A DNA stretch of 23,218 nucleotides from a virus: positions 1 through 23,218 of the IMG/VR virus record IMGVR_UViG_3300002835_013749. One strand, written 5' to 3'. Numbering within the stretch: position 1 is the stretch's first letter; each line of letters begins with the position of its first letter. The notes under the pieces were generated by a model, which was not told where the DNA came from, did not search any database, and worked only from the letters and a program-made list of their open reading frames with translations. Below are positions 1,200-22,449 of the stretch, one piece after another. Made by a program: the position numbers and the translations under genes.

Positions 1200-1997
1200 A
1201 TGGAACCAATGACAATGTTAGCTATTGGTGGAGCTGTTGCTGGTGGTCTTAGTTCAATCTTTGGAGGCAAAGCACAAGGTGCTGCTATACGAGCTCAAAA
1301 CGAACAAGCTATGCGTAACTGGATTGCTAGTAACTCTCAAAAAACATTTGCAAATGCAAGAGAACAATTCCAATCTACTTATGCTTTTACTCAACAACTA
1401 AAGCGTAACTCAGCTATTGCTCAAAATGCCTATGCTTACCAGTATGATGCAATGAATGTTTTAGACGCTAATCGAACAATAGCTCAAACTGAAATGGCTA
1501 ACTCTTTAAGTTCACAAAGAGCAGCTTTAACAAATGCTTTAATGAATAAAGGTATCTCTTCTTCGAGTGGCGCTTATGCTATGTTAGCTACAAGCCAAGC
1601 TTTAGATGCAATTGATAAATCAGGACAAGCCAATGCTGCTATTGAACAACAAAAAAACGAAATTAATAAACAATTTAATGCCATGATGTCCCAACAAACC
1701 GAAAATATATTTATGCCTAATATTCAACTTTATGATGAAGCTCCAACACTAGGTGATGCAAGTGCAGCTGAAGCTGGTGGTATGATTTCTGGTTTAGTGC
1801 AAATTGGTGGAGCTGTGGCTGGTGCTGCTGTGGGAGCTATGGATAAAATGGGTTCTACGACTACAGCCAGTACTCCTAAAGTAAATAAATTTGGAACTGA
1901 TGTAAGTAGAGCACCCACAGGTTATAACGTTACATCTACAGCTTCTGGCTCTACACTAAGTAGACAACCACAAATGTTTAGTCTTTATAGGAGATAA
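1200..1997 (+). CDS. Internal virion (DNA ejection) protein, T7 gp14-like
   Basis: Probable small internal core protein, ejected from the capsid to help form the channel across the host outer membrane. The 265-aa product starts with a hydrophobic Gly/Ala-rich segment (residues about 5-22, including AIGGAVAGG and FGGKAQG). A long Gln/Asn/Ala-rich helical region (about 25-165) follows, then a second Gly/Ala-rich hydrophobic stretch (about 193-213), then a Ser/Thr-rich tail. This layout, and its place directly before a long gp15-like gene, fit the gp14 family; T7 gp14 is 196 aa. The start ATG at 1200 is set by the site AAGGAGA at 1187-1193, which overlaps the terminase stop, so the two genes are probably translationally coupled. 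No enzyme motif was seen. Function is inferred from composition and gene order more than from residue-level similarity. Confidence 0.7.
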   Translation: MEPMTMLAIGGAVAGGLSSIFGGKAQGAAIRAQNEQAMRNWIASNSQKTFANAREQFQSTYAFTQQLKRNSAIAQNAYAYQYDAMNVLDANRTIAQTEMANSLSSQRAALTNALMNKGISSSSGAYAMLATSQALDAIDKSGQANAAIEQQKNEINKQFNAMMSQQTENIFMPNIQLYDEAPTLGDASAAEAGGMISGLVQIGGAVAGAAVGAMDKMGSTTTASTPKVNKFGTDVSRAPTGYNVTSTASGSTLSRQPQMFSLYRR

Positions 1998-4900: not shown

Positions 4901-6388
4901 GACTTTAGAGCACAAGCATCCTATATTCAAGCTTTACCGTTTGTTTTTTCTTCGTGGTCACGAGATAGTTCAAATCCAGCTCAAAGTATATTTGTTAGAA
5001 CAGCTGCAACTCAAGATCAATTTAACCAAGCAAATGCAGTTAGATTTACTCCAATACTCTTTGCCCGAGCTGCAATAACTCAACCTAGTTTAGAATCTTT
5101 AGGTATTTCAGACCCAAATGAAATAAATATTAATGATATAAAAAATACTCCTGAAGATTTAAATATACAACTTAATACAATTATTGATGGCAAAACTTTA
5201 TCACCAAAAGATCCAGAATGGAATCCAAATTTAGCTTTTGTACTGTTTCAAAAATCTGGACTTGTTCCAGAAAACATGACTAAAGAAGTATTTGCAATGG
5301 AGTTACAAACCCGTTTTCTTGAAGGATCTATAGATTTAACTAATCAAAACCTTGACTCAGATCAGTTAATTAGATTAGCTTTTATAGCTTTAGAACGATT
5401 TGAATTAGAGCAAGATAGGGGATTTAGTAATGCAGTTAGCATGGCAACAAATCCAAATATTGGAATTGATTCGTCAAGTTTTCCATTATCTGAAGGTAAA
5501 AACAAAACCTCAGAATTTTTAGGATTCTTGGGTGGTTTAATGGGAATTCACGCAGGATATGAAACAGCAGCAATTGATCAAGGTAACTATACTATTGGTT
5601 ATAATGATACATATGCAAATAAAACTTTAGTTCAAGATAGTCCTTCTTCTATGACTACAATGTTTTCTGTTACTAGAGGAACAGCTGATACTAGTTACAG
5701 TGTTGTTAATTTAACAAATTATTTAAACCAACATGGAAAAGATCCACTTAATCCCAATGGATATATATGGGAAGCTAATTCAAGATTTAAACCTACTTTC
5801 GAAATTATAGAAGATAAGCCAGTTAGTAAAAACGGTGTTCCTTATAAAATGGGTACTATATTATTAGAAAGCAAACCAGACTCAAATCACTTAAGTACAA
5901 TGTTATCGCCTTACATTCAACACTTACAGTTTACCGATCCACAAGATACACCAGATTTAATGTTTAGAGTTAACACAGCAATACAAACTGGATTAGAACA
6001 ACCCACCATGTTTGATGCATTAGTAGAAATTAATAGAGCACTAGAAGACGATGGTTTACCTGGTTTTATAAGACCAAACAACCTATACACAAGAAATCCA
6101 GATAACACGTTTAATACAAGTAACCTAACTAAAGGATCTTCTGAAATAGTTCAACAAAAGTCTGTAGGTAGGGTTAATTCTATGGGATTTACGTTTTCGT
6201 GGATAAATGAAAACTTTAATGGAACACCAATGTTACATATTCCTAATAGAATTTGGAATAAACCACTTGAGTTTACATCAAATCCTAAACTAGAAGAGTT
6301 TAAAGAAAAAGAAAAACGGAAAAAAGAGTTAACAGATTTCCAACTTGAATTGGAAAAAGAATTAACTTTTAGTAAAGGACTAAAGTAA
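2000..6388 (+). CDS. Internal virion protein, gp15-like, very long (1462 aa)
   Basis: Probable second ejection-core protein, filling the T7 gp15 slot between the gp14-like gene and the vRNAP-related genes. The N-terminus is Gln-rich and low complexity (about 1-50). A helical segment ending in charged heptads (LGQIEKRKIEAARERF, about 78-93) follows, which resembles the start of T7 gp15. The rest is long, mostly helical and polar with no catalytic motif I recognise. The C-terminus is a Lys/Glu-rich helix (about 1430-1462). It is about twice the length of T7 gp15 (747 aa). The start ATG at 2000 lies three bases after the previous stop; the site AGGAG at 1989-1993 overlaps the end of the upstream gene, which indicates coupling. 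No signal peptide or transmembrane helix is obvious. The gp15 assignment rests on order, style and ends; the central thousand residues are unassigned. Confidence 0.6.
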   Translation: MSRGNIEQLLNVGENIPLQQVSPGTPQFRQSSFQGGQVQLGAPTQQVGPTSEEAMYSSLAEIAQGTQQGLDNFGQVLGQIEKRKIEAARERFNQIFASDYAESVDDKTTKTKKYLNPEEKLDEWNNYIKEVWTPLSGSTWIDEINTKAYASFGSREAQDSFEAGRYEREASLFFADPKNSRRLNQNSPTAKMEFDAYYSSKYPAATSNYWFKAQQQENLSQYQLQEDSTAKQALEESLSEILQLPPLEIAKTIAQSNSDESAELRDRYAVLYKDILPSIPAGSNQREVASRLINFYNKQLIENNPNQYQPHTLLELQRAIPKIAMQHAEHVLNIRSITHIEERRNAASQSLNLANTRMMDPVLWDSSKTNFFKSVISFTPYSGVSNVEQTNAVAAAAGSIWKQGYDTSTQALKTKVTRNGGGIPLNSVLYEEFPTLDNFKHGESTYLGNMSPNKQIETIAGFVLEEALTDPATANNLMRLYGVDNIPDVIKRYRSSVNAYIASSKEIQEANKTYYTEQDQQTNRVMAVMEQHGDLRRIEQITTDAIQTRAERNNLPLDLFRSIYVTALESGEDFKGDFNLDMWYMGLSPADKQRVDAAAIMYGSNRQQLETSAKQAFALELKAIDIGRSLTEQLNVAQEKQQEALDKNIKERNEHASKLNNKLKTFNIDITDPVSGSETGGDLVLSFIEGRSIFAEDPTTREIKELLVPIYEAFQNTESLPKNADGTINYEELNPVQKAQVDLLGKLNEWQKSEIPSEKELAERLMSGVYGLQVAMSEARIMMESQWIGLQESQHKLNKPNEEFDTEKARADFNGTFKNYEKSVLTGGFSFNGQFSNEKALNPDGTLSQYSFNWLASAYTFAYRSGRADDQRVTGVQHNEQIRTTTESLINAISVNNNPDDFIKNPSSVLPYLGFVMFGKGLNRAIQERGILPASSGAGWFVDRIAMIANGSSGINMQEAIEYFSSPDFRAQASYIQALPFVFSSWSRDSSNPAQSIFVRTAATQDQFNQANAVRFTPILFARAAITQPSLESLGISDPNEININDIKNTPEDLNIQLNTIIDGKTLSPKDPEWNPNLAFVLFQKSGLVPENMTKEVFAMELQTRFLEGSIDLTNQNLDSDQLIRLAFIALERFELEQDRGFSNAVSMATNPNIGIDSSSFPLSEGKNKTSEFLGFLGGLMGIHAGYETAAIDQGNYTIGYNDTYANKTLVQDSPSSMTTMFSVTRGTADTSYSVVNLTNYLNQHGKDPLNPNGYIWEANSRFKPTFEIIEDKPVSKNGVPYKMGTILLESKPDSNHLSTMLSPYIQHLQFTDPQDTPDLMFRVNTAIQTGLEQPTMFDALVEINRALEDDGLPGFIRPNNLYTRNPDNTFNTSNLTKGSSEIVQQKSVGRVNSMGFTFSWINENFNGTPMLHIPNRIWNKPLEFTSNPKLEEFKEKEKRKKELTDFQLELEKELTFSKGLK

Positions 6389-6390
6389 AC

Positions 6391-9300
6391 ATGTCAAGAT
6401 TTCCATCAACAGGTTTTCAATATCAAAGTTTTAACCCTTCTTTAACGGTTGATAAAGATAATTTACTTCAGTTAAATTATCCACAAGATCAGCAACAACA
6501 AGAAGCAATGATTCAACAATCTTTATTTAAAATTCAAACACCGCAAAGCACCATAATGAATGCAATGCGTAATGAACTTAAATCAGAAGATGATTTAAAC
6601 AAAGATCTTACTGATCAGTTTGAAGCATTTGCTCAACAACAGCAAATACCATATAGGTATTCTTCAGATATTTTAAAAGAACAAATAAAAAATAAAGCAG
6701 AACTTGTAGACCGCCATTCTAAATTTTTACAAAAACAACAAGGTTTAGAAGATGACCAATTAAAAACATGGGAAGCTTATCAAGCAATTCAACTAGAAGG
6801 AAATCTTAATAACAGCGTTTTAACCGTTGCTTTAGGACTTGGAGATGTAACCCAAGTAGACCCAGAAAAAGCAAGTAATAGTTCATTAAGTTACTTTTGG
6901 AATGTTACAGCAGCTCGTGGTTCTCTTTATGGTAAGATTCAAGATGTTAATGCTACAGCTCCACAGGTAAGCGAACTTATAGGTACTAATGCTCAAACTT
7001 TATTTTATATGGCAACTCGTTGGCGTGGTGGTAAAAAAGGTAAACTTTGGGAAGAGGCTACAGAAAATAGTTCTAAATTAAAAGAATGGTTTAAAGAAGA
7101 TCCAACTACTAAACAATTCTTAGATTACGCAACTAATATAAGTCCTACTTTATTTTCTATAAGTGCATCTACTGATATTGGTTGGGCTGGTAAAAGTATA
7201 TATGATTATCTGAGAGAAGCAGACAAACCAGAAGATTGGAATCCAAAAGAAGCAGTAGAGTTAATTAAACAAAATGCTCCACAACTTGCTTATGTTCTTT
7301 TTGATCAAATGCAGTTAACCGAAGAGCAATTAACCAGTGAAGAAGTAGCTTATAATCCTCAGATGTTTAAATATTTTATTGCAGATGCAATTGATGGATA
7401 TGCTACAGCTATTATTAGTAAAACTTATAATGATAATTCAAATGCTTTTTCAAGAGTAACTTTTGATTTAGTAGCACCTATTTTTAGAGATTCTTTAAAC
7501 TCTAACGATACAGTAGCAGAAATAAGTTTAACTGCGTTAGGTTTTGGTTTAACTGCTTTAGGTGGTGCAGCAGCTGGTCCAACAGTGGGTCTTTCTTTGG
7601 GTGCATCGGCTGCTGGTGTTGCAGCTACAACAACTGGTCTTGCGAGTTTAACAGCTAGGGTTACTAGAACAACCAGAGCAGTTGCTAGAACCGCAGCATT
7701 CTTAGACTCATATAATGCAGCTCGTTATATTAATAGAGTAGGTTTAGCCACAAAAAAACTTGGTAAAACATCAAATATAGGTTTAAAAACTATAGCTAGG
7801 ATTTCTTCTGTAGCTGGTCATGTTAATAAATTTGCTCCACATAATCTTGGTGAAAGTTTATTACAACTTACAAAAAAAACTAAAGTTGGTAAGTATTTAT
7901 ATGTAGCTAAAGAAACACCATTTGATCAATTATACAAATCGGGTTGGAAAACCCTTGCTGAAACTGGTCTAAAATATTCAGCTAGATCTATAATTAATGG
8001 ATCAATTCAAGGAGCAGCAGAAGATGGTATTCGACAGTGGCAAGTTTTATCAGCTGGTTTTGATAATTCATTTTCATGGTCTGCTTTAGGTCAAAACATG
8101 GTTGAAGAGGGTATTGGCGAAATTTTATTGGGTGGTGCTTTAAACGTTGGTTCAAATTGGACTAATGCTACAAGAGCAGTAACCCAACGAGAATTAAAAG
8201 CTTTAGATATGTTTGATGTAAAACTAACACAAAAGTTAGGTAATTTTGGAAAACAAAAAGCAGTCGCTGTATTTAATAACCTACCTAAAGATATTAGACG
8301 AAGATTAGAAACATCTGTTGGTGTTTTATCTGGGTTAAACGCAGAAACTTTAGAGGGTATGACACTAGAACAAAGAGTTGATTTTAGGGTAGCAGCTATT
8401 GATTTAGCTTACAGATTAGATGACTTTGGAACTTCAACTGGTTTAGGTAACTTTATGTTTCAAAGAGGATCAAACCAATTTGTTGAAGATATTTTAACTA
8501 GTATGGCAGATGGTAATGAATCTCAAGTTTCTTCCGATATGAGAAGAAATCTTACCAAATCTTTGTTAGGTATGCATGAAAGAACAAAAGACCCAAAAAC
8601 AGGTAACTCTACAATTAATCCTGATGAGTGGAAAACACTTACTTATTTAGCAGCTAGAGATTCTATTATGAGTAATGATTCGATTAAAGAAGAAGATAAA
8701 GATGTTCTTCTTAAACGTTTAAATGCTGTACTTTTTCGTAATACTGCAAAAGAAATGTTTGCACCTTCTACCCAACCTAATGGTGTAGAACAATCTTTTG
8801 ATTTAACAAATACTACACTTGAACAGCAAGAAGAATTTGCTCAAAAACTTAAAGAACGCGAAGATGCTGTTAAAGTTAAAGTCTTTGGTTCTATGTCTGA
8901 TGAAGAACGAAAAGCAGCAATGGAAGGAACTTTTATTTCTGAAGAAGATCAAAAATTCTTATCGGATTTAGCTACTAAATTTAAAGAACAAACGAATACA
9001 CCAGCGACTAGGTTAAAAGGTGTGGGTTTAGGAGTAAGCGGTATTTCTATTAAACCAACTGTAGAAACAAAACCAGAATCAAGTATTAAAACTAAAGACG
9101 AAGACACGGATAACGAAGGGTCTCTTACAGACGCTGATCAAGAAGAAGAGTATCTTTTTAAAACTTTAGAACAGAATCCTAGAACTGGGTTTGTATTTGA
9201 TCAAGTACAAAAAGCTCTTAAAACTAACCAATCAGGTAAAGATTTTTTTGGTAGTGGTATGGATTTTGAATTTGAAGTAATGAGTGAAGGTTTAAAGGCT

Positions 9301-9777
9301 TTTACAGATAGTGAGACAAATCAAATAATTTGGATTATTGATGAAGCTAGAAAACTAGGGCTTGATCCAGATACTCTTACAGCAAAAGCATTTTTTATTC
9401 TTGCAAAACAAGCAAGAGCAAAGTTTAAATCAGCTCCTACTGTTACTCCTGAGGCTACTCCTAAAGCTACTCCTGAGGTTACTCCTGGGGCTCCTGAGGC
9501 TACTCCTGAGGTTACTCCTGGGGCTCCTGAGGCTACTCCTAAGGTTACTCCTTCGGCTACTCCTGTGACTCCTGAGGCTACTCCTGTGACTCCTGAGGCT
9601 ACTCCCGAAACTCCTAAAATTAGTGAAAGCATTAGTTCTGTTTCTACAACAACAGAAATTTCTGCATTGGCTTTGTCCGAAAGACTAAAAGTAGAAAGTG
9701 ATACTGTAGCCTCTATTGATATAAAACCAGAAGATTTATCAGATATGGAAGCTTTCTTAAGAGATTCTTGTTCATAA
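6391..9777 (+). CDS. Putative injection protein resembling the N4 vRNAP N-terminal domain
   Basis: 1128-aa product, probably a capsid-packaged ejection protein. Residues 1-120 are Gln-rich and polar. Residues about 378-424 form a long Gly/Ala-rich hydrophobic stretch (including LGGAAAGPTVGLSLG), followed by a basic helical region rich in Arg/Lys (about 425-470). Residues about 531-590 contain SIQGAAEDGIRQW and MVEEGIGEILLGGALN. This alternation of Gly/Ala-rich hydrophobic and basic helices, and the EEG-type segment, look like the N-terminal ~1000 residues of phage N4 virion RNA polymerase, which serve DNA injection. Near the C-terminus (1015-1075) is a Pro/Thr tandem-repeat linker. The stop TAA at 9775-9777 is in frame with the next gene, and only five sense codons separate it from that start. 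The start at 6391 has only a weak site (AAAGGA, 6374-6379) and probably depends on coupling to the gene upstream. The N4 similarity is judged by eye. Confidence 0.55.
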   Translation: MSRFPSTGFQYQSFNPSLTVDKDNLLQLNYPQDQQQQEAMIQQSLFKIQTPQSTIMNAMRNELKSEDDLNKDLTDQFEAFAQQQQIPYRYSSDILKEQIKNKAELVDRHSKFLQKQQGLEDDQLKTWEAYQAIQLEGNLNNSVLTVALGLGDVTQVDPEKASNSSLSYFWNVTAARGSLYGKIQDVNATAPQVSELIGTNAQTLFYMATRWRGGKKGKLWEEATENSSKLKEWFKEDPTTKQFLDYATNISPTLFSISASTDIGWAGKSIYDYLREADKPEDWNPKEAVELIKQNAPQLAYVLFDQMQLTEEQLTSEEVAYNPQMFKYFIADAIDGYATAIISKTYNDNSNAFSRVTFDLVAPIFRDSLNSNDTVAEISLTALGFGLTALGGAAAGPTVGLSLGASAAGVAATTTGLASLTARVTRTTRAVARTAAFLDSYNAARYINRVGLATKKLGKTSNIGLKTIARISSVAGHVNKFAPHNLGESLLQLTKKTKVGKYLYVAKETPFDQLYKSGWKTLAETGLKYSARSIINGSIQGAAEDGIRQWQVLSAGFDNSFSWSALGQNMVEEGIGEILLGGALNVGSNWTNATRAVTQRELKALDMFDVKLTQKLGNFGKQKAVAVFNNLPKDIRRRLETSVGVLSGLNAETLEGMTLEQRVDFRVAAIDLAYRLDDFGTSTGLGNFMFQRGSNQFVEDILTSMADGNESQVSSDMRRNLTKSLLGMHERTKDPKTGNSTINPDEWKTLTYLAARDSIMSNDSIKEEDKDVLLKRLNAVLFRNTAKEMFAPSTQPNGVEQSFDLTNTTLEQQEEFAQKLKEREDAVKVKVFGSMSDEERKAAMEGTFISEEDQKFLSDLATKFKEQTNTPATRLKGVGLGVSGISIKPTVETKPESSIKTKDEDTDNEGSLTDADQEEEYLFKTLEQNPRTGFVFDQVQKALKTNQSGKDFFGSGMDFEFEVMSEGLKAFTDSETNQIIWIIDEARKLGLDPDTLTAKAFFILAKQARAKFKSAPTVTPEATPKATPEVTPGAPEATPEVTPGAPEATPKVTPSATPVTPEATPVTPEATPETPKISESISSVSTTTEISALALSERLKVESDTVASIDIKPEDLSDMEAFLRDSCS
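9433..9615 (+). repeat. Pro/Thr-rich tandem repeat inside the 1128-aa gene
   Basis: Imperfect tandem repeats encode a PEATP/PEVTP-type linker (residues about 1015-1075). They include a perfect 33-base unit present twice in tandem (9475-9507 and 9508-9540) and a perfect 21-base unit present twice in tandem (9559-9579 and 9580-9600). All unit lengths are multiples of three, so copy number can change without breaking the frame. Codon choice (CCT, ACT, GAG) is uniform and more GC-rich than the surrounding gene, which fits recent expansion. It probably encodes a flexible, extended spacer. Confidence 0.9.
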
Positions 9778-9792
9778 AAAAGGATTAAAAAT

Positions 9793-12700
9793 ATGAGTCA
9801 AATTAAATGTGCACTAAGTTTAGAAAAATTAGAACAACTTGAAAAAATGATTAATACTAAAGTAGAGGGCATTACCGATCCTAAGGTTCGACAAGATACT
9901 ATTATTTCTATTTTAAAAACCTTAGAAAAAACCTATTCTGGTATAGTTAATCAGTTTCAATCTTATTTAGACGAAAAAACAGCAAACCTTAAACTTAGTC
10001 CAGATGAAGCTACAGAGTTAAATGTACTATTAGACAAAGCTTTAAAACCTGGTAAAAATACCTATCAAAATTTAGATTCAACCGAACGATCTAGACTTTT
10101 TGTACTTGCTGAAAAAGCTCAAAATAGTTTAGGTGGTGGTAATAGAGTTCTTATTGAAAGAGCTAAAATGTTTGTTAGTATGGCAACTTCAGAAAAATCA
10201 GAAGTAACTGTAGAAGCTATAACTGTATTAGAACACCAACGAGATGTTGCTCAACGAAACGGCGATACAAAAACAGTAGAACGAATTGACAAACTAATTA
10301 AATCTTTACATAAATCTGCAAAGATAGCTAGTAATCTAAAGATTGATTGGAATGCAATTGAAAAACATCAAAATAAAAGAGATAGAATCTTTGCTGAATT
10401 ATCTTTATTAGAAGCTTTAAAGGCTACTGGAGATGGAAGTTATAATAAACAAGTTAAAAAGTTTGAAGCTGAGTTAACAAGACTACGAAAAGAATTAGTA
10501 AATATTCGTGACGCTAAACAACAAGTATCAAACTCAGATGACGATCAAGCATCTAAAAATGAACAAATAGAAGAATTAGATGTACAAGCAGCGGAAATTC
10601 GTGATAGATTACAGAAACTAAATGCTAAAATGTTAAATGGTTTAGATCGTAAATCTAAAGAAAGACTTGCTAGTATTGACGCAAAGATTAAACAATTACA
10701 TTTAGAGTTAAAAAAACTAGATGCTGAAAATACAGACTTAGATTACGTTCAGAGTTTAATATACAGTGCAACTCCAAGTCAAGACTGGTATTTAGCCAGT
10801 GCTCGTGATTTGTTACAAAAAACAAAAACAGTCCGTAATAACATTAACTTTGTAAAAACTACAATAGAAAAAACAGCTGATGATTATCAATTTACTAGGC
10901 AGGAAGTTGAAACTTTGTTTGGTAAAGAAGCGGCTATTATTTCAGCCGTAAGAGCTGAGTTTACAGAATCTATGAAAGATCCTGAAACTAAAGAACCAAA
11001 TAAAAAAACTAAAGAAACTATTTCTAAAGAAGAAGTTTTAAGAATTTTTGATATTTGGCAAAAGCTACAAGAAGAGTCTATCTATGATACAAGCTATCAA
11101 TCAGAAGAAGGTAGAATTATTTCTGACATGGTTAAGCACACTGATCGTCAATTAATTACAGACGTATCTCCTGACGACCCTCAACCAGTTACTAGAACTA
11201 GAGAAGAAGCTTTAACACAACAACCAGGATATGCTTATGATGGAAATAAAAAAGAAGATAGGGTTAAACTAGTCTCTGATCTACAAAGAACAATTGGAAG
11301 ATTAAATACACTTAGTAAACTTCCAAAGTTTAATGGATTAATTCCTGAATGGGCTTTAGTTTCTGCTTTAGGAACAGATGCTCAAAGTTTATTTAGTTTG
11401 TTTGAAGGTGCTTTATACGATCCACAAGCAGTTCTTTATGACGATGAGTTTACTTTTGAAAATGACCATCAACGAAGAATGGCCTTAAGAGAAATGCTCT
11501 TAAATTATGGTTTTGATGAAAATACATTCCAACGAATTCCAGAAAATAGAGAAGACTTTAAAAGTGATTTTAGAAACTTAATTGGTTTGTCATTTATTAC
11601 AAATGCAGATGGTAAAATTATTGGCATTTCTAAAACAGTTAGAGTACAGTCTGAAACCAAAACCATTACAGAAACCCATGAATTTATTGAATCAAGTGAG
11701 GGTCCTGGTAAACCACTTACCCAAGAAGAAGCAAAACAGTTTCTTTCTATGGTTGAAGAAGATATGAATAATGGTTTTAAAGTTGTAACTCACGGTGCTT
11801 TACAACCAGATGGTAATCTAGAAGCTTTAATCCTACAAGCTAAAGATTCTAAACTTGGTTTACGAATTGGTTTAAGACTACATGACACAGCTATGCTAGG
11901 TTTTAAAGGCGCTATTACAACAGGATTCTCAAGGTATAATCCTCCAGCTTTAGATCGAATGTCAATGGCTTATAAATCTTCAAGTAAACCTTTGCCTAGT
12001 GAGGTTGAAACAGCTAATGCAGTTGCCGATGGAAATAGAACTTTATATGTTGAACATGCTGAACTTAATAGTGCAGCCCCTATTATGCTTTTGTTAGCAA
12101 TTCAAGTAAAAGCAAATGAAACAGTAATGGTTGAAAATAGTTCTAATGTTGAAAGTGAAGTTTATATAGAAGAAGCAACTCCACTTTGGATGGATGGAAA
12201 AACAAACCAAAACCCAGGTAAAACAAATTCTAGTTATAATGGTGTTTCATCTTTATTTGATATTCAAGTACTTTCTAATTTAAGAGAATATAGAGGACAT
12301 GGCGCTAATAGAGAAAGTATGTATGATTTATCTAAAGTTCAATCTATTGCTTCTAATCTTATGTTTACTGCAATGGAAGAGTTAAACCCAAATGAGTTAA
12401 ATAATATTTTAACTGGTTTAGTGGCTACTCCAAATCAAAGAGATCGTAGTTATGAACTTTCTATGAAATTATCTCAACGTAATCATGCTGCTTATTTAAA
12501 AGTTAAACAACAACAACGCGAAGCTAATGGCGGACTTTTTATTATTAAACAATCTCAAGATGTAACTGGAGAGGTTACTCCGTTGCTTAACGCCGATTCG
12601 CAAGTTTATGTTAGAGAAGCTATTAAGGAAGTGTTTGAAACCTTACGAGCGTATAAACGTAAACCAGAAAAAGTTATTGCTCAGTTTGCTTTAGATATTG

Positions 12701-15700
12701 GATTTAGAAAGCAAGAAGCAGGAGAAAAAACTGGTATTTATGTTCGTAAATTGTTTGAGTTTGCAAACAAAACGTTTAATGGTCAAGAATATTCTTTTGT
12801 AGATTTTGGAAATGGTAAGTTTGATTATATATCATCAACTCAATTGGGTAGAGGATTTGCTCAAGTAATGCTTGGGTTTGTGCGAGAAGGTAATACTTTA
12901 ACTCAAAATATTGACTTTCCATTAACAACAGCTGCTTTACTAAAAGAAGAAAAAGCTACGGATTCACAAGAATTAGATATCTTAGATATTGAAAATAACA
13001 TCGAAGAAAGACAATACTTGCCACTTACCCGTCAAAATGTTTCATTCTTTGCTCCACTCAGTATGTATGAGCAAGAAAGAACCTATAGTGACTGGGCCCT
13101 AAGACAACGATATCAACACATTCTTACTAAAGATTTGAGTGATAAAGATAGAACTCGATTTATGGAGTTCATTAAAACAAATAGAATTGTCGAATTTAAG
13201 AATAAAATATTAGAACTTAAAAATGAAATTGAAAAGAATAAAGACAATCCAACTAAACTAAAAGAAATTGAACAAGAACTTTTTACGGTTAAAGAAGAGT
13301 TTTCAAAGTATATGGAAACTTTGGATGATCGAAGACTTGAGCAAGGTCGTGTTCAATTGTTTAATTTAATTAATCCAGTAAATAACAAAGATCTTTTTAC
13401 TTCTATTCCTACTATGGAAGAATCTATCCAAATGTCTTTGGAAGTTGCTGCGGAATTGCCACAGCTTATTGCAACATACGTTCACGATTCGCGTAATTAC
13501 ATTCCAGGTTCTAATACCCAACTAGAGAACAATACTTATATGGTTGATCCTGGTAAGTCTGCTGGTGGTTCTGGAGCCCAGGCTACATGGTCTGGCATCC
13601 ATCCACTATTGGGCTTTATGGTGATGTATCCTCAGAAATTTAGACCAACAGAAGCACAACTACAAGAATATCTACGAGAAGCCAAAGCTTCTGGTAATAA
13701 AGAACTTGTTAAGCGATATGAGGATATGATTTCTGGTAAGGATAAATATGGCATTGTAGACATTACTCCAGAGATTCTAAAACAAGCTTTAGAAGAAGGG
13801 GCTAAAGCACGAAGAGAGGGTGTTAATTATTCTAAATCTTCTTACTTTGATGATAAGTTTAGCGGTATTCACCACCTTGTAGCAGCACAAGAAGCCTTTT
13901 TTCCAAGCACAAGAAAACGCAGTCTTTTAAATGAGTTATTTACTTTACTAAATAATGGAATGACTGTAACTGAAGATCAGTTAGTAGATTATTATTCAAA
14001 AACTTTTGATGAAACTTTATCTAATGCTGAATTACTAAAAGATAAAATTAGAAATAATAAAGATTCATCACAACAAAAGACTAAAAAACTACAGCAATTA
14101 GATAAAGTCTTAGCTATTCTTAGTAAAAATCAATTATCTACAGGAGATGGCCCAAACTCAGACGCTAGAACTTTCTTTAAGGGTGTTGTAATTCCTATTA
14201 TTTACTCTGGTGGTTTTAGTGCAGTTGCAAAGGATTTAAAAAATAGACGTAAAAAAGCAAATAAAACAGGAGATGTTAATAATCCTGATATTGGAGATTT
14301 AAGTGATTCTGATATTGAGCTTTTAGCTTGGTTACTTACTTCCGCAGCTGGAAAACAAAATGGTCGTTTAATTGATCAAATATTAGATTTAGATGCAAGT
14401 AAATCTCAAGAGCTTGTTAAGCTAATGACTGGAGATACTGAAGAATTAGTTAGTAAATATAAACTAGATATGACTAATTTAAGTAAGTTACATCCTGAAA
14501 TGACTAATGCCATGATTACACAAAATGTACTTCATGGTGCTATTAGAGCACGAATTGAATATGTTGCTCGTTTATCTATACAACCATCAGACATTCAATT
14601 AAGATTAGAAAACAAAACACTAGAAGAAACTGGACTAACAAAAGAACAAGTAACTGAACAACTAGTAAAAGAAAAAACAGATCAATTACTTAAAAAATGG
14701 AAGACAAGAATTGATAAAGCAATTGCAAGATTAGAAGAATATAACCAATCTCAAGGAAAACCAAAAGAAGCTCCGTATAAACTTGGGTCTGAAATTGACA
14801 ATGAAATTAACATTATCCTAGCGGGTGGACAAAAGCAATATGCTGCTCAAGCTACGTTGCTTTTCTTAAATAAAGTTCAAAATTCGGGTTATAGCTTAAA
14901 TACAACTAACCAGGCTTTATTAGGTCATCAGGTTCAAACAGGTAGATATATTGCACAAGACGATCTTATGTTCCAAAACTATGTAGTCTTTATGTCTGCT
15001 GGCATAGGTACAACAACTGGACGTATGTATTATCCTGGTAACTACTTAACTAACCTACATGGAACAGATCTATCTAAAGGTTTAAGATTAGTTTATAATG
15101 ATGATGGTTCTTTGGATATGGGAGATACTACATTAGGTAGCATGTGGACACTTACTGAGAATCCACTTGGTGCTATGTCTAGAGAAGATGCTCTCAAAAA
15201 AGCACAAGACTTAGCTATTAGACAATATAGTTTAATGTTAGCTACAGACTATGATCCTGAGTTTCTAGGTTATAACGCTTCTGAAACAGAAAGTAGAGAA
15301 AACTTTTTTAAGGCGTGGGAAAGTAGATCACAAGAAGAACGTACTTTTAGCCATAGAGTTAAACGTGGTGGTGATTTACGAGAGGCATATAAAAAAGTTT
15401 ATCAAGATCAACAAAGAATGGTCTATAAAAACTCAACTAAAGCAGATGGATCTAAGTATACCGAAGAAGAAATTGAGCGTTTTGTTGTAGATATCAGTGA
15501 AAAAGATATTGATGATGCGATTGAAAGCAATTCGGTTCCTTTCCATAAACGCGAAACACTAAGAGTTTTAGCTCCAGATGTCTTATTACGCGAAGAAGGT
15601 GTAATGATGACTATGAAAGACGCTAAAGGTTTGGGTGGATTTATCCCAAGAATTGCTGACCATGATTTTAACGATGCTATTGTACATGGTCTATATTCAA

Positions 15701-18700
15701 TACACCACCAATCTAGACAAATGAGAACAAAAGCTGGAAGAAATCTATTTAATATTAGAAAAGTTCAACAAGAAAAACCATCTCTCAGTCAAGTTCTTAA
15801 TGAAAAAGCTTCTACTTCTAGTATTTATGATCCTGATCAGGTTGCTTATATCCCAGTTACAGCCGATTCATTACCAGAAATGATGTTAGACCATGAACCA
15901 ACAATGTTGGTTAAAACTGCTAATATGCAAAATACATTAGATATGTTTGCAATTGAGTATGGTTATGATCAACTTATGAAAGATAGAGATTATGCTAGAT
16001 TGTATTTAATCTACCAAATTCATAATAAACTCCGTAAACTTACAAGAAGATTACATAGTTTTGTTTTAGATTCCGTACAAGAAAAAGCTTTACGAATGGA
16101 ACATAGAAATCTTGTTTTAGATTTGTTTAAACTTACTAAGTTCCAACGTGATGCTAAGGGGTCTGAACGAAGTATTCTTAGTTTCCAAAAAGCAATAGCA
16201 GTTGATCCAACTAAGTTTAAAACTAAATCTGGTAAAAACATGTTATACTTAGATGCTATGCGTGTTTTAGCTCAATTAGGTATTACTGAATTACATACAT
16301 TAAAGTTTGGTATATCGCCTACACAATTGCAAGTACTTGGAGATCAGTCTGTAGATGTACTTAAAGATGCAGAAACTATTGTTAAACCTTACTATGTTCA
16401 AGGACACGATGTTGCATTACTTATTATGGAAGTACTTGCTAATGATGTTGTTAAAAGACGAGCAACTGAAATTGCAAAGGATTACGTTAAAAAGGGTAAG
16501 ATAACTAGTATTTCAACAGATCCACAAGGTTTTGTTATCCTCAGTGATTTAAATCCAGAGCTTAATGCTGAAATTTTACAGGCAGTATTAAAAGATGATG
16601 CTTTATTAGACTCAGCCGCAAACAATTTAAATCTATACGTTACATTAGAATGGGGATCTAACGTTACAAAGACTAACCCAGATGGAAGCCCTAGAGTTAA
16701 AATTACAGCACATAATCCTTCTACTACTGCTATGGTTATGACTCGTAGAGGAGTTGGGGATGTTATTGTAAATCGTACTCGCCAAGGACCACAACAAGCT
16801 CATTTCATGTTAACAGCCGAAGATTTAAAACGAATCTTGGTTAGTTCTGAAAATAATGGCTTATGGACAAAAGTAGAATTGGCTGTTCAAACTAATAAGT
16901 ATTTAGGCTCAAGAACTAATGTTGATACTTTAAGATCACAATCGTTTATTGATTTTGCTCAAACACTAAAGCAAGATGTAGCAGAAGAAGTTGAAATACT
17001 ACAACGACTACAGAATCCTGATAAGCCATTACGTCTTTTAGTAACAACTGGACAATCAGAATTACGAGATGAACATGGATTAACCCTTAATCCCTTTGAC
17101 TCTGAATACTACTTTTATGAAACTGGTGAAGAAACAGAAACAACCCCAGCTAATCCTAAATATAAAAACCTCAATCCATTTAAAGCAGCTATATCTTCTA
17201 GAATTAATAAGGCTATAAAGTTAGGTCAAAGATATGTTACTTTAAAAAAAGAAACACAAATTCTTGAAGAGTTTTACAACGGATTAACTCCTAATTTTGT
17301 ACCTGTTTCTTATTTAATTTTTTTAAAGTCTAATGCTAAAGATTTAGGTATGAGTGCGTATAAAGTTTTAGTTGAAGAAGTAATGGGCGTTGATACCCTA
17401 AGTCAAGAAGACTTTGAAAAGATTTATTACGAAGCAGAAAAGTTACTTGACATCATTGAAAAAATTGAGTTTTCACCAACTAAAGGTAAAAATCCATATT
17501 TATCTGTGGCTTTAAAAACCTTAGAGCAAAAAGAAGGTGTTGGAGTTAGAGATATTCCAACTATTAGTAATCCATCTTATACAGTCAAACCAGGACGACA
17601 TTTTAGAACTGTTCGTAGTATGGGAACTACACCTAGTAGTTATTCAACAGATGTTGATTTTGAATTAAAAGCTTTGGCTATTGAAGAAGCTAAATCATTA
17701 TTACGTCGCCAAAAAGCTTTTGAAGTTCCAGCATATCCAGCACTTAGTCACCAAGACATTATTACTGGGGCATATTATCCAGAACATTACGATACAGTTA
17801 TTCCTGGTGATGATGGAAATGTTATTCTTAATCAAATTGATAACTTAGTTGCTAGTAAAACTATTAGTGAAGAAACTGCGGTTTTTTACCGTTACATGGT
17901 TGCTAGTATTTTTAAATCTAACCCAAACCTTGTACCTTTGCTTTCTATTACAGCAATAGACACATCCTCTAATATTGCAGGATCGGCTATTAAACAAGAA
18001 GATAAATTTGTAATTAGACTTAATACTAATATTCTTAAGAATATGGGTACAGTAGATCAAGTTCGTGTTTTTGCTCACGAAGTGGCTCATATTGCTAGAA
18101 TGGCTTTTATTCGTGATAATAGTTCAGAATGGAATCGTATTATTTCTATCTTTAATTCTAAGAGTGGAAAAGCAACCATTGAAACAATGTTGTTAGCTAT
18201 GAATAATGGCAAAAAATACATTGGATTTGATGATGATGTTCAACATTACCTTAGCCATCCTGAAGAATTTGCAGCTCAATGGGGTGCTTGGGTATTAGTA
18301 CAAAAAACATTTAACAATACTGAACTCATGAAGTTTTTACAATCAAGAAATCGTGGATCAGTAGAAGCTAATAATAAATGGAAAGCTGCTTTGTTTGCTG
18401 TTCAAGATGAACTTATTGGTATTGGAGTTGGCTTAAGTGAATTAGACGAAAAACTTAGAAATGATTTATTTGAGGTTGTAGATAGTATGTTTGGTTTTAC
18501 AGCTACTGAAGCTAGACAAATATACGTTAATAACAAGAATCAAGAGTTGTTTATGGTATCTAACTTATTAGAACCTTTATCTAGTACAGAAGAAACTGAA
18601 TTAAGTACTTTGTCAGCAATGGGTGTTCGTACTAAACCAGATGAAGATAGATTCCTTGAATTACAAAGACGTAATGAGGCATATGGCGTAACTTTAGATA

Positions 18701-21700
18701 AAAGTACATATACTACATTACGAAATAATAGAATGTCTGCTCCTGATTTTAGACCAACTACTACTAATGAAGAACTAGAAATTATTCAAACTGTTGTTAA
18801 CAGAGGTTTAGAAAGAGCATCTGTAAACGCAAGAGCTGATCATACTATAGGTGGTTTAACCAGAAACATGGCTGAAAAGATTTTTGGTGTTGAGACAGCA
18901 AACAAAATTGTTTCTGCTAGAAGAGCTATGGTATGGGGAACTCAAGCTGGATCTACTTATGATAACTCAGATCCTATTATTGCTACACTAATGAATATTA
19001 TTTCAGACACTATGAGTATGCATTCTTATCAATTTCAGTATACTGAAGGTTCTCAATCTATTGTTCCAAATAGATTGTATACTCGTCGTATGGTTGAACG
19101 TGTAAGCTATGAAACGGATCAATTACACCTTGAATCTCGTAATACAGCTGAATTCCTTGCTTTAAGAGAATGGGCTGCAAAAGAAGCTTTAGGTGTTTCT
19201 CAACCAACCCCTAGGGTTTCTGATCCAAAGGTTTTAACGGCTGCTAGAAACCTTGCATTAGCTATGAATACTAGTTCAACAGAACTAAGAGATTTTATTC
19301 AGGGTTCGTATGGTAGGTTTAATGAAACAATACCAATGCAGTGGGAAACTGATTTATTAGGAACAGGATCTAAAAAAACATTGAGTGGTGCAAGTAGTTC
19401 AACTGCAAAACAAAATCAAGCAAGAGATCGACAATTAGTTCAGGCCGAACTTAGTCAAATGATTCGTAATAGATTATTAAAAGGCGAAGGAATTGACAGT
19501 ACAGTTATTTACACTATGGGTCTTTTACCTAAAGTAGTAACTCGGGATTCAATCCTTGAACTAAGCAATCGCCATCCTAGTATTGTATTTGCTTTTAAAA
19601 ATATCATTAAAGACGAATTAGCAGCATCTGGTTCATATACAATAGCACAAGCTCAAATTATTGTAGATGCTATGTTTGATCCTTTAAATAACTTTACAGC
19701 TCCTCCTGGAATTGGTATTACTACTGAAGATTTTGTTCGTGTGTTTGCAGACATTACTAAACAAGCCTATGGCAGAGCAGCTATCGGTAAATTACAAGGT
19801 TCACAATTTGGTAAAATACACGATGAAATAGCTAAAGTTGTTATTAGTACTATTGATACAGATGTTGCTACATTAGGTGAATTAACAACATCAGAAAAAC
19901 AACAAGATGTACCTCCTTCTGTGTTAAGAATTCAAGAAGTTAGTGCATTCTCTGGTGTTACTTTAAGTGGTAAGCCTTCAGATGTGTTAGCTAAATTATT
20001 TATGGGTCATGTTGGCAATAGTGCTAAATATATGTCTAAGTCTGGTTTTATGAATATGAAACTAATTCTTGAGAATCCTAAGATTTCTAAGTTTGTTGAT
20101 ACATCTGTTAATAAAGGAATGTATCAAATTGAACGAACTCAAGGATACATGAAAACATCAGAAAGATCTATTGAAAGAATTACTGGTGTTGAGAATGTAA
20201 ATATTGCTAAGCTTATAAGCTTAATTAGAAAAAACATTAATAGTATTAAGACAGATGATAAGCCTGGGTTATTACGAGTACTTAGTGTTCTTGAAGAAAA
20301 GATTAAGATTGACCAAGGATTAGGTATTAAAGAAATTGGTGCACATCCTGTATTTGAATTTATTGCAAAATGGGGTCCAGATATCACAAGAGTTGCACAT
20401 GGTAATAATCTTAATACAGCTTCATTGTTGGTTGAAGGCGGTATAGGATTTGTAATTAATAGTATGTATGGCGGTAATCCACTTAGATTTGCTAATACTA
20501 TATTTGGAACTATGTGGGATAGTTACTGGGGCCGTGGTATTCTTAAACGAGGTATGACTCAAGTTGAACAAAGGGGTGCGGCTGTAAACTTACTACTTGG
20601 CGTAGAACGTATGATTCAAGATGCTAGAGAAGTTGTACATATTGCAGATACTAGGTTTGATAAAAATGCTAGTAAGATTCAAAAAATCAGAGATTGGATT
20701 AGACAATCAAACAATAGAGGTTTAACCAGTGTTCAAGTAGGTTTATCTGAACAAGCACAATGGATTGTTAAGAAAAATCTTTTAAATGGTAATCTACTAA
20801 AGTTAAAAGATATTGTAGAAAATGGTTATGGTCCAACTAAGAAAAAAGTAACTAACATGACTGAATTAAAAGAAGCTCTTAGTCAAGCAGGAGTAGCTAG
20901 ATTTGGTACAAATGCTTTAAACTCACACATGGCATGGATTATAATTCAATCTGGTTTATTAAATACTAAAGTATTAGATGCATACCGATATATGAATACT
21001 GTGGTTGATAATACAAACACTGAAAAATGGGGTTTAGATTTACAAGCGGCTGGTCGTTGGATTGATAGAACTACATGGAAGTCTGGAGAATATATTACTG
21101 GTACTGGTCAAAAGATTGATAATAGAGCTGCTAAAAAAGCGATTGAAAGTATTTACTTTATTAATAAAGAATATACAAACATAGTAACTGTAGATCCAAA
21201 TTCATTTGATTCGGCTACTTCAACAAATGCTTTAGAAACCATGTTCTTCTTTTATCGCCAATATCCAAACTTATTCTTAGCTCAAAAGGTATTTAGATTA
21301 GCTGGTAGAATGGATAAAAGTACTTGGTTAGCCTTAATGGTAAGTTCTTCAATATTAGATATGATTTACAATATGTTATTATTGGTAGCAGCTGGTGCTT
21401 TACCTTTAACAGCTTTAGCACCTTGGAGTGATGAGTTTATATTTAAAAAACAACCATATTCTGTAATTAAAACATTATTTACTAGAAATCCAATCTTTAG
21501 TCCTGTAGGTAATCTTGTGGCTGAATCCGTGTACTCTGCGGTTAATGCAGCTGAAAAAACTAAGATTAATAAATATCAAAATAGATATACACAAACTCAA
21601 AAAGGATTCCAAGCGTTCTATCAAGAACTAATGCCTGACTTTGTGCCACTTAGTGCGGCTGAGACATTACTTGGTGGTATGGTTCCTTCAGCGGTTTTAG

Positions 21701-22053
21701 GAGCTAATTCTATTCTTGATGTTTTATTCTTAGATGGTGTAGGTGGTGAACTTAATACTCAAGAAAGATGGGATAGAAATAATGCATTAATTCGGGTTGG
21801 GGCTAGGTTAACACCTGGCGTTGAACTTTGGATGCGAGCTTTACTTCCAACTTTAGGAGAAGAGTTAATGGGTAAACGTCCTGTTAGACTTCCTGTTGCT
21901 CCTGTTGGTTCATCTCCATTTGCTCAACCAGGTAAACCACTTAGTGGATTACAACCAACAACACCTAAGCAATCACCTAATGCTGCTGTAATTCAAAAGA
22001 AAACTTTAGAAAGTTCACTTAAGCCAATACCAGTTCCAAAGGGATTAAGATAA
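9793..22053 (+). CDS. Giant virion RNA polymerase-like protein with zincin domain (N4 vRNAP type, 4086 aa)
   Basis: Probable capsid-packaged, single-subunit RNA polymerase that enters the host with the DNA and transcribes early genes. Layout by eye: coiled coils (1-310); unassigned region (about 310-930); polymerase module (about 935-1790); zincin-like domain with HEVAH at 2762-2766 and a possible third ligand in HPEEFAAQW (2822-2830); helical region; C-terminal FFFYRQYPNLF (3818-3828), a hydrophobic segment (about 3845-3875) and a Pro-rich basic tail. Polymerase motifs: A, YFDDKFSGIHH with Asp1353; B, RTFFKGVVIPIIYSGG with Arg1459, Lys1463 and Tyr1471, matching the R-x3-K-x7-Y pattern of T7 and N4; C, best candidate LVYNDDGS with Asp1770/1771. 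The A-to-B gap is 106 residues, against about 107 in N4. The usual D/TxxGR motif is degenerate (DSRNY, 1232-1236). N4 vRNAP is about 3500 aa. Start ATG 9793 has AAGGA at 9780-9784. Motif A and B assignment is strong, C moderate. Confidence 0.75.
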   Translation: MSQIKCALSLEKLEQLEKMINTKVEGITDPKVRQDTIISILKTLEKTYSGIVNQFQSYLDEKTANLKLSPDEATELNVLLDKALKPGKNTYQNLDSTERSRLFVLAEKAQNSLGGGNRVLIERAKMFVSMATSEKSEVTVEAITVLEHQRDVAQRNGDTKTVERIDKLIKSLHKSAKIASNLKIDWNAIEKHQNKRDRIFAELSLLEALKATGDGSYNKQVKKFEAELTRLRKELVNIRDAKQQVSNSDDDQASKNEQIEELDVQAAEIRDRLQKLNAKMLNGLDRKSKERLASIDAKIKQLHLELKKLDAENTDLDYVQSLIYSATPSQDWYLASARDLLQKTKTVRNNINFVKTTIEKTADDYQFTRQEVETLFGKEAAIISAVRAEFTESMKDPETKEPNKKTKETISKEEVLRIFDIWQKLQEESIYDTSYQSEEGRIISDMVKHTDRQLITDVSPDDPQPVTRTREEALTQQPGYAYDGNKKEDRVKLVSDLQRTIGRLNTLSKLPKFNGLIPEWALVSALGTDAQSLFSLFEGALYDPQAVLYDDEFTFENDHQRRMALREMLLNYGFDENTFQRIPENREDFKSDFRNLIGLSFITNADGKIIGISKTVRVQSETKTITETHEFIESSEGPGKPLTQEEAKQFLSMVEEDMNNGFKVVTHGALQPDGNLEALILQAKDSKLGLRIGLRLHDTAMLGFKGAITTGFSRYNPPALDRMSMAYKSSSKPLPSEVETANAVADGNRTLYVEHAELNSAAPIMLLLAIQVKANETVMVENSSNVESEVYIEEATPLWMDGKTNQNPGKTNSSYNGVSSLFDIQVLSNLREYRGHGANRESMYDLSKVQSIASNLMFTAMEELNPNELNNILTGLVATPNQRDRSYELSMKLSQRNHAAYLKVKQQQREANGGLFIIKQSQDVTGEVTPLLNADSQVYVREAIKEVFETLRAYKRKPEKVIAQFALDIGFRKQEAGEKTGIYVRKLFEFANKTFNGQEYSFVDFGNGKFDYISSTQLGRGFAQVMLGFVREGNTLTQNIDFPLTTAALLKEEKATDSQELDILDIENNIEERQYLPLTRQNVSFFAPLSMYEQERTYSDWALRQRYQHILTKDLSDKDRTRFMEFIKTNRIVEFKNKILELKNEIEKNKDNPTKLKEIEQELFTVKEEFSKYMETLDDRRLEQGRVQLFNLINPVNNKDLFTSIPTMEESIQMSLEVAAELPQLIATYVHDSRNYIPGSNTQLENNTYMVDPGKSAGGSGAQATWSGIHPLLGFMVMYPQKFRPTEAQLQEYLREAKASGNKELVKRYEDMISGKDKYGIVDITPEILKQALEEGAKARREGVNYSKSSYFDDKFSGIHHLVAAQEAFFPSTRKRSLLNELFTLLNNGMTVTEDQLVDYYSKTFDETLSNAELLKDKIRNNKDSSQQKTKKLQQLDKVLAILSKNQLSTGDGPNSDARTFFKGVVIPIIYSGGFSAVAKDLKNRRKKANKTGDVNNPDIGDLSDSDIELLAWLLTSAAGKQNGRLIDQILDLDASKSQELVKLMTGDTEELVSKYKLDMTNLSKLHPEMTNAMITQNVLHGAIRARIEYVARLSIQPSDIQLRLENKTLEETGLTKEQVTEQLVKEKTDQLLKKWKTRIDKAIARLEEYNQSQGKPKEAPYKLGSEIDNEINIILAGGQKQYAAQATLLFLNKVQNSGYSLNTTNQALLGHQVQTGRYIAQDDLMFQNYVVFMSAGIGTTTGRMYYPGNYLTNLHGTDLSKGLRLVYNDDGSLDMGDTTLGSMWTLTENPLGAMSREDALKKAQDLAIRQYSLMLATDYDPEFLGYNASETESRENFFKAWESRSQEERTFSHRVKRGGDLREAYKKVYQDQQRMVYKNSTKADGSKYTEEEIERFVVDISEKDIDDAIESNSVPFHKRETLRVLAPDVLLREEGVMMTMKDAKGLGGFIPRIADHDFNDAIVHGLYSIHHQSRQMRTKAGRNLFNIRKVQQEKPSLSQVLNEKASTSSIYDPDQVAYIPVTADSLPEMMLDHEPTMLVKTANMQNTLDMFAIEYGYDQLMKDRDYARLYLIYQIHNKLRKLTRRLHSFVLDSVQEKALRMEHRNLVLDLFKLTKFQRDAKGSERSILSFQKAIAVDPTKFKTKSGKNMLYLDAMRVLAQLGITELHTLKFGISPTQLQVLGDQSVDVLKDAETIVKPYYVQGHDVALLIMEVLANDVVKRRATEIAKDYVKKGKITSISTDPQGFVILSDLNPELNAEILQAVLKDDALLDSAANNLNLYVTLEWGSNVTKTNPDGSPRVKITAHNPSTTAMVMTRRGVGDVIVNRTRQGPQQAHFMLTAEDLKRILVSSENNGLWTKVELAVQTNKYLGSRTNVDTLRSQSFIDFAQTLKQDVAEEVEILQRLQNPDKPLRLLVTTGQSELRDEHGLTLNPFDSEYYFYETGEETETTPANPKYKNLNPFKAAISSRINKAIKLGQRYVTLKKETQILEEFYNGLTPNFVPVSYLIFLKSNAKDLGMSAYKVLVEEVMGVDTLSQEDFEKIYYEAEKLLDIIEKIEFSPTKGKNPYLSVALKTLEQKEGVGVRDIPTISNPSYTVKPGRHFRTVRSMGTTPSSYSTDVDFELKALAIEEAKSLLRRQKAFEVPAYPALSHQDIITGAYYPEHYDTVIPGDDGNVILNQIDNLVASKTISEETAVFYRYMVASIFKSNPNLVPLLSITAIDTSSNIAGSAIKQEDKFVIRLNTNILKNMGTVDQVRVFAHEVAHIARMAFIRDNSSEWNRIISIFNSKSGKATIETMLLAMNNGKKYIGFDDDVQHYLSHPEEFAAQWGAWVLVQKTFNNTELMKFLQSRNRGSVEANNKWKAALFAVQDELIGIGVGLSELDEKLRNDLFEVVDSMFGFTATEARQIYVNNKNQELFMVSNLLEPLSSTEETELSTLSAMGVRTKPDEDRFLELQRRNEAYGVTLDKSTYTTLRNNRMSAPDFRPTTTNEELEIIQTVVNRGLERASVNARADHTIGGLTRNMAEKIFGVETANKIVSARRAMVWGTQAGSTYDNSDPIIATLMNIISDTMSMHSYQFQYTEGSQSIVPNRLYTRRMVERVSYETDQLHLESRNTAEFLALREWAAKEALGVSQPTPRVSDPKVLTAARNLALAMNTSSTELRDFIQGSYGRFNETIPMQWETDLLGTGSKKTLSGASSSTAKQNQARDRQLVQAELSQMIRNRLLKGEGIDSTVIYTMGLLPKVVTRDSILELSNRHPSIVFAFKNIIKDELAASGSYTIAQAQIIVDAMFDPLNNFTAPPGIGITTEDFVRVFADITKQAYGRAAIGKLQGSQFGKIHDEIAKVVISTIDTDVATLGELTTSEKQQDVPPSVLRIQEVSAFSGVTLSGKPSDVLAKLFMGHVGNSAKYMSKSGFMNMKLILENPKISKFVDTSVNKGMYQIERTQGYMKTSERSIERITGVENVNIAKLISLIRKNINSIKTDDKPGLLRVLSVLEEKIKIDQGLGIKEIGAHPVFEFIAKWGPDITRVAHGNNLNTASLLVEGGIGFVINSMYGGNPLRFANTIFGTMWDSYWGRGILKRGMTQVEQRGAAVNLLLGVERMIQDAREVVHIADTRFDKNASKIQKIRDWIRQSNNRGLTSVQVGLSEQAQWIVKKNLLNGNLLKLKDIVENGYGPTKKKVTNMTELKEALSQAGVARFGTNALNSHMAWIIIQSGLLNTKVLDAYRYMNTVVDNTNTEKWGLDLQAAGRWIDRTTWKSGEYITGTGQKIDNRAAKKAIESIYFINKEYTNIVTVDPNSFDSATSTNALETMFFFYRQYPNLFLAQKVFRLAGRMDKSTWLALMVSSSILDMIYNMLLLVAAGALPLTALAPWSDEFIFKKQPYSVIKTLFTRNPIFSPVGNLVAESVYSAVNAAEKTKINKYQNRYTQTQKGFQAFYQELMPDFVPLSAAETLLGGMVPSAVLGANSILDVLFLDGVGGELNTQERWDRNNALIRVGARLTPGVELWMRALLPTLGEELMGKRPVRLPVAPVGSSPFAQPGKPLSGLQPTTPKQSPNAAVIQKKTLESSLKPIPVPKGLR
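12580..15162 (+). other. Putative N4/T7-type RNA polymerase module within the giant gene
   Basis: This covers codons about 930-1790 of the giant gene. It starts where the protein (IKEVFETLRAY onward) begins to run parallel to the start of the N4 mini-vRNAP as I remember it. The catalytic Asp codon of motif A is at 13849-13851. Motif B codons are Arg 14167-14169, Lys 14179-14181 and Tyr 14203-14205. The best motif C codons are 15100-15105 (Asp-Asp). A helix-like stretch (MEESIQMSLEVAAEL) before position 1232 and WSGIHPLLGFMVM after it also run parallel to N4. Boundaries are approximate and were not computed. Confidence 0.6.
18076..18270 (+). other. Zincin-like metallopeptidase motif region
   Basis: Codons 2762-2826 of the giant gene carry HEVAH in the helix-like context VFAHEVAHIARMAF. 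About 55 residues later comes HPEEFAAQWGAW, where a Glu could be the third zinc ligand. N4 vRNAP has a comparable HELVH followed by NEFMAWG after its polymerase module. A peptidase activity, for example self-processing inside the capsid or action on a host protein, is inference only. Confidence 0.6.
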
Positions 22054-22125: not shown

Positions 22126-22176
22126 GGTCGTGTGACCTAGCGGTGGTCTGATGTCTTGTATACCCAAGGAGTCAGT

Positions 22177-22449
22177 ATGCTTGCTATTGTGTTCTTGTCC
22201 GCCGCGATGTTCTCGATTTTGGCAATCGGGTATGCGTCCAAAACGCGAGCGCTTCTGGATCGTATTGAGGTGTTAGAGGGGGAGAACGCCAACCTCTCGG
22301 AAGAACTTAACAACGAATGCTCGAACTACGAGCATTACGTCCAACATCAGAACGGTGAAATTGAGCGGCTCCGAGTGTTGGTTGAAAAACTAGAAGAAGA
22401 GGTTAAGCGCCACGAAGAAGCCTGGGATGGCTTCAATCCCAACACATAA
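22177..22449 (+). CDS. Small membrane-anchored coiled-coil protein
   Basis: 90-aa product with an N-terminal membrane segment (MLAIVFLSAAMFSILAIGYA) and then a charged coiled coil rich in Glu, Leu and Arg (about 25-85). The layout is that of a small inner-membrane protein with its helix facing the cytoplasm or periplasm. An inner-membrane spanin-like (Rz-type) or other lysis accessory role is possible but not shown, and its length is short for that family. I chose the ATG at 22177 because AAGGAG (22166-22171) lies five bases upstream; an in-frame TTG at 22156 would add seven polar residues before the membrane segment and has no such site. GC content is near 50%, clearly above that of the upstream genes. 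Family not recognised. Confidence 0.75.
   Translation: MLAIVFLSAAMFSILAIGYASKTRALLDRIEVLEGENANLSEELNNECSNYEHYVQHQNGEIERLRVLVEKLEEEVKRHEEAWDGFNPNT

Follow-up and report, generated by a model that had tools for sequence, protein, structure and literature searches.

A probable single-subunit RNA polymerase core with rearranged motifs in a giant protein of uncultured T7-like phages

The giant gene, its neighbors, and its family

The window, the whole stretch of DNA analyzed here, is a 23-kb virus record (23,218 nt) whose 5′ end falls inside a gene for a T7-type large terminase (TerL). This gene is followed by three genes with products in the size range of internal virion proteins (265, 1462, and 1128 aa) and then by the giant gene (Table 1). 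The 4086-aa reading frame at 9793–22053 on which the earlier note was based is real and has no interruption. The order of genes for products of ~250 aa, ~1400 aa, ~1000–1200 aa, and the giant is kept in the relatives G001–G003 and G008, and it matches both the gp14-15-16 internal protein block of T7 and the site of N4 gp50 beside the ejection proteins. Family searches gave no match for the 1462-aa protein and no convincing match for the 1128-aa protein, and hhalign comparison of the giant and its neighbors with T7-type internal virion proteins gave no matches. A 97-aa open reading frame located 3′ of the giant gene (22156–22449) has weak holin/Rz-type matches.

Table 1. Features of the window, with residue numbers of the giant protein where applicable; fractions refer to the 22 members of the conservation set.
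Feature	Position	Strand	Remarks
Terminase large subunit, T7 type, cut by window start	1..1188	+	PF22530 E=7e-34, phrog_38 E=8e-51
265-aa protein, gp14-like in position and size	1200..1997	+	Weak T7_gp14 match, E=0.65; glycine-rich N-terminus
1462-aa protein, probable internal virion/ejection protein by position	2000..6388	+	Homologs in same order in G001–G003 and G008
1128-aa protein, probable internal virion/ejection protein by position	6391..9777	+	Same order in relatives
Giant gene, 4086 aa, putative second, probably virion RNA polymerase	9793..22053	+	One uninterrupted ORF
Polymerase region, residues 830–2029	12280..15879	+	Region taken for profiles and AlphaFold2
Motif C-like segment, residues 1215–1244, contains LPQLIATYVHDSRN	13435..13524	+	H1231-D1232 at 13483–13488, 22/22
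Motif A, residues 1350–1362, SYFDDKFSGIHHL	13840..13878	+	D1353, G1358 22/22; aligned with Asp and Gly of T7 motif A
D1399, counterpart of single-subunit RNAP D-x-Y between A and B	13987..13989	+	22/22; aligned with N4 DLY, T7 DIY
Motif B, residues 1459–1474, RTFFKGVVIPIIYSGG	14167..14214	+	K1463, Y1471 22/22; A–B P=2.5e-4 vs N4 type
Motif X, residues 1685–1705, AQATLLFLNKVQNSGYSLNTT	14845..14907	+	Matches T7 YKAINIAQNTAWKIN (~314–330)
T/DxxGR-like segment, residues 1730–1784, contains GTTTGRMYY	14980..15144	+	R1744 at 15022–15024, R in 20/22
Zincin-like HEVAH, residues 2762–2766	18076..18090	+	SprT-like E=0.002, below Pfam cut-off
Hydrophobic segment, residues ~3847–3879	21331..21429	+	Kyte-Doolittle scan; not family-wide

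Searches of the giant against Pfam, PHROGs, and PDB sequences gave no RNA polymerase (RNAP) match, the sub-threshold SprT-like (zincin) stretch being the sole hit. Two scans of genome contigs for the giant found none, and tblastn with the giant proteins of the window, G005, and G007 against 50,697 phage records gave two chance matches only (E=2). Relatives were obtained by a TerL search, which yielded 67 contigs, several of them 65–69 kb long, and a direct match to the giant is present in 10 of the 12 long contigs. The giants form a family of ~4,000–5,000-aa proteins in uncultured T7-like phages with genomes of up to ~69 kb. More distant members, which came from further scans, reach 5003 aa (L161:3918-18929) and 4715 aa (L160:3672-17819), and identity to the window giant falls in places to ~14–20%. 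Conservation was assessed in 22 members, that is, the window giant and 21 others.

An ordinary T7-type RNAP is present in six relatives (G001, G002, G003, G005, G007, and G008). The annotated relative G002 encodes this RNAP (PF00940, E=5e-82) together with primase-helicase, PolA, exonuclease, capsid, and tail proteins. G002 (L095) also has genes for ThyX, DUF932, and a B12-type ribonucleotide reductase, a gene content that is unusual among T7-like phages. Directly 3′ of its giant gene (L094:13917-15100) are direct repeats of >20 bases with hairpins (TGTTAGC...GCTAACA and CCTATG...CATAGG), which are possibly a terminal or regulatory region.

The zincin motif and hydrophobic segment that the earlier note had placed in the same order as in N4 both exist, but HExxH reads EExxH in one whole clade, so that a conserved protease activity is unsupported, and the hydrophobic segment is confined to part of the family. 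The N- and C-terminal parts of the giant have no significant match to the N4 virion RNAP (vRNAP) except for the short zincin stretch (residues 2755–2783; P=0.009).

Polymerase motifs and their order

The giant family was compared with three profiles of single-subunit RNAPs. The N4-type profile consists of N4 gp50 and 12 related vRNAPs taken from phage records, with their motifs checked; in N4 gp50, motif A has D1556, motif B has R1663-K1667-Y1675, the T/DxxGR segment has R1421, and motif C has D1948, and motif C reads HDA in three members of the profile. The first T7-type profile contains T7 RNAP and seven other T7-type RNAPs, and the second, disjoint from the first, contains nine further T7-type RNAPs. 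Profile–profile comparison, which the earlier note had proposed, reveals in the giant family a core of the single-subunit RNAP type (native order, P to 2.5e-5), with a layout different from that of N4. By hhalign, the A–B segment of the family matches the A–B segments of N4 (P=2.5e-4) and T7 (P=0.0013), and its X–T segment matches the N4-type profile (P=8.9e-4). The match of the core to the T7-type profiles is at least as good as that to the N4-type profile. Pfam RNA_pol, by comparison, matches the polymerase region of none of 21 members.

Within the full 4086-residue profile, the best places of the T7 segments are 1685–1721 for X, 1730–1784 for T, 1350–1533 for A–B, and 1215–1241 for C, and the disjoint profile of nine RNAPs chooses the same four places. 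At this length, both T7-type profiles give significant matches for motif X (P=0.0078 and 0.0016) and the T/DxxGR segment (P=0.0048 and 0.0017), whereas A–B (P=0.31) and C (P=0.10) are not significant alone. In 100 column shuffles, the observed score was never reached for C, X–T, or A–B against the T7 type, or for X–T or A–B against the N4 type, and control comparisons with two neighboring protein families and three other parts of the giant all gave P >= 0.09 (35 comparisons). When three clades were run separately, mostly the same places were found, with weaker signals, several of them not significant.

Nine residues are invariant in all 22 members (H1231, D1232, G1258, D1353, G1358, D1399, F1461, K1463, and Y1471), and position 1459 in motif B is R or K throughout; D1724 (21/22) and R1744 (20/22) fall just short of invariance. 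Motif A with Asp1353 (FDDKFSGIHH) and motif B (R1459-x3-K1463-x7-Y1471-SGG), both assigned in the earlier note, are therefore real, and the A-to-B spacing of 106 holds beside 107 in the N4 record (D1556 to R1663). Conservation in relatives, which that note named as a test, does not extend to Asp1770/1771, its choice for motif C: these residues lie in a gapped, unconserved loop of the family alignment and so are not motif C. The segments matching T7 ~314–345 and T/DxxGR, for which parallels had been claimed ahead of motif A, are located after motif B. Motif X (AxNxxQxTxWxIN) and T/DxxGR are both present downstream of B, with exact letters that vary among members.

The motif order in the giant is probably C-A-B-X-T, compared with X-T-A-B-C in the T7 and N4 polymerases, and departs from the superfamily order T-A-B-C. 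When X–T was moved directly before A–B, the score rose from 39.9 to 55.3 against the N4 type and from 31.9 to 54.4 against the T7 type, and in a further T7-type test from 56.5 to 67.1 (P=1.4e-6, up to 400 aligned columns). The position of X–T downstream of B is well supported by these sequence comparisons. The sole segment resembling motif C, VHDS, lies upstream of motif A. It matches T7-type motif C with P=0.0015 (first profile) and P=0.02 (disjoint profile, within residues 830–2029); against N4-type motif C, significance is lacking (P=0.14; the score is reached in 4 of 100 shuffles), although D1232 is still aligned with the catalytic Asp of N4. The local score of the reordered profile was no higher when C was included. 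A location of motif C before A, the weakest element of the assignment, is likely from the profile matches. C-A-B-X-T is no rotation of X-T-A-B-C, which would imply at least two rearrangements. The occurrence of one layout in members from different metagenomes speaks against an assembly error. Two other candidates for motif C, ADHDF (1955) and D1724, were rejected because they lack conservation or profile support. HD1232 as the counterpart of T/DxxGR (spacing 122, compared with ~135) was dropped after X–T had been located at 1685–1784.

A core with the order A-B-C-X-T, in which X–T is circularly moved, motif C is a residue such as D1724, and the upstream HD is something else, would need a single rearrangement, and D1724 is present in 21 of the 22 members. 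This arrangement is unlikely, as D1724 lies only 20 residues upstream of R1744, is Glu in G010, and is picked by no C-type profile, both T7-type C profiles choosing 1215–1244. The ownership of a T7-type RNAP by these phages, together with the degenerate zincin motif in one clade, would suit a remnant polymerase domain that has lost catalysis and now serves in a structural or DNA-holding ejection protein, but the catalytic-type residues are all invariant while the rest of the protein has diverged to ~20% identity, and a remnant is improbable.

Two AlphaFold2 runs (20–21 sequences) gave models with mean pLDDT of 62 and 64, consisting mostly of helices; the helical part preceding the motifs is confident, and most motif regions are below 50. 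No palm is visible in the two models of the polymerase region, where pLDDT is <50 at most motifs, and Foldseek, run twice with the models, found no structural match and no PDB match. The structural comparison that the earlier note had proposed thus yields neither support for a palm nor a confident non-palm fold. The helical models and the modest single P-values would be compatible with chance resemblance of motifs in an unrelated giant ejection protein, but the agreement of independent profiles on the same places, which the shuffles and the 35 control comparisons fall short of, leaves this explanation with little probability. A conventional collinear N4-type vRNAP, as first proposed, would account for the A-to-B spacing, the good A–B match, and the downstream HExxH, but is very improbable given that scans of the whole giant put the X–T profile segments downstream of B, that native order scores below orders with X–T before A–B, and that Asp1770/1771 is not conserved. 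The giant is probably a DNA-dependent RNAP of the single-subunit (T7/N4/mitochondrial) superfamily with a rearranged palm–fingers core within a ~450-kDa ejection protein.

A predicted role in early transcription

N4 vRNAP promoters are hairpins with a 6-bp stem and a 3-nt loop. In three of five relatives (L089:5916, L095:3428, and L111 near 7020), a hairpin of this geometry (TGTAGC-TAT-GCTACA or TATAGC-ATA-GCTATA, G008 having one paired change) is located 29–48 nt upstream of the T7-type RNAP gene and is a possible hairpin promoter; with tens of such hairpins in each genome, the promoter reading is only a lead. The ordinary RNAPs of G001, G003, G005, and G008 are 78–86% identical to that of G002, whereas the giants are often only ~20% identical, which suggests that the giant evolves very fast or swaps between phages.

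Packaging of the giant in the virion is suggested by its gene position and by analogy. N4 gp50 is ejected along with two further proteins and comprises an N-terminal membrane part, an RNAP domain (1007–2101), and a C-terminal part that carries HExxH (PMC12633501). In phage P23-45, the gene for a second RNAP, which is not part of the virion, is transcribed by the virion RNAP (PMC10770324). By these analogies, the giant is probably a second, injected polymerase of a T7-like phage. What we infer for it, including the identity of motif C, the fold, catalytic activity, packaging, injection, and promoter choice, is as follows. D1232 and D1353 would bind the two catalytic metals, and K1463, Y1471, and R1744 would correspond in function to T7 K631, Y639, and R425. 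The giant would be packaged together with the neighboring internal proteins, be injected with the phage DNA, and transcribe early genes, among them the gene for the ordinary T7-type RNAP that the phage itself encodes and that would then take over. In its complete form, this reading has about an even chance of being correct: large T7-like phages would have a new class of virion RNAP, a single-subunit, DNA-dependent enzyme whose palm blocks are rearranged (C-A-B-X-T) beyond a simple circular permutation, and this injected RNAP would act early, ahead of the normal T7-type RNAP.

The textbook view of T7-like phages is that host RNAP is needed for the synthesis of their own polymerase. If true, a second RNAP that is probably injected would alter this view for a whole uncultured lineage. 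The shuffled order, if true, would show that the palm of this superfamily, too, can be rearranged, as has been described until now for RNA-dependent polymerases of viruses. Such enzymes would then escape searches with collinear profiles, as in Pfam and PHROGs. A literature search for permuted single-subunit RNAPs or virion RNAPs in Autographiviridae, with subscription journals largely outside its scope, found no precedent.

Comparison with known polymerases

N4 gp50 (Schitoviridae) resembles the giant in its very large size, in the central place of its single-subunit RNAP core, in the location of its gene beside ejection-protein genes, and in its A–B spacing, D-x-Y, motif B, and downstream HExxH. 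The giant differs in motif order, its core departing from the collinear N4 arrangement with C after B, and in the distance from motif B to HExxH (~1,300 residues compared with ~560 in N4), a motif that is degenerate in one giant clade. The genomic context is also unlike that of Schitoviridae, with a T7-type TerL in the window and a gp1-type RNAP, primase-helicase, and T7-type tail proteins in the relatives. Judged from sequence, the giant is probably a single-subunit virion RNAP of a new, rearranged kind. From the earlier interpretation, the single-subunit core, the probable virion location, and a lineage other than N4 are retained, whereas the N4-type label is wrong in architecture: the T7-type match is at least as good, the motif order is different, and motif C had been misassigned.

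The gp1-type RNAP of T7 (Autographiviridae) occurs in the same type of phage and shares with the giant motifs X, T/DxxGR, A, D-x-Y, and B as well as, probably, an HDS-type motif C. Unlike gp1, the giant has a rearranged order and ~4,000 residues, is encoded among late internal-protein genes, and is carried in addition to a normal gp1.

In permuted RNA-dependent RNA polymerases (RdRps), the palm is rearranged with C ahead of A (C-A-B), as is likely in the giant, but these enzymes are RNA-dependent, belong to another family, and have no moved T/DxxGR block. Permutation is documented for the RdRps of permutotetraviruses and birnaviruses (PMC4666646; IPNV VP1, PMC3121795). In P23-45, too, a very large virion protein is fused to an RNAP and the phage has a second, non-virion RNAP, but unlike the giant the P23-45 virion RNAP is a homolog of cellular RNAP and is part of the tape measure protein of a long-tailed phage (PMC10770324).
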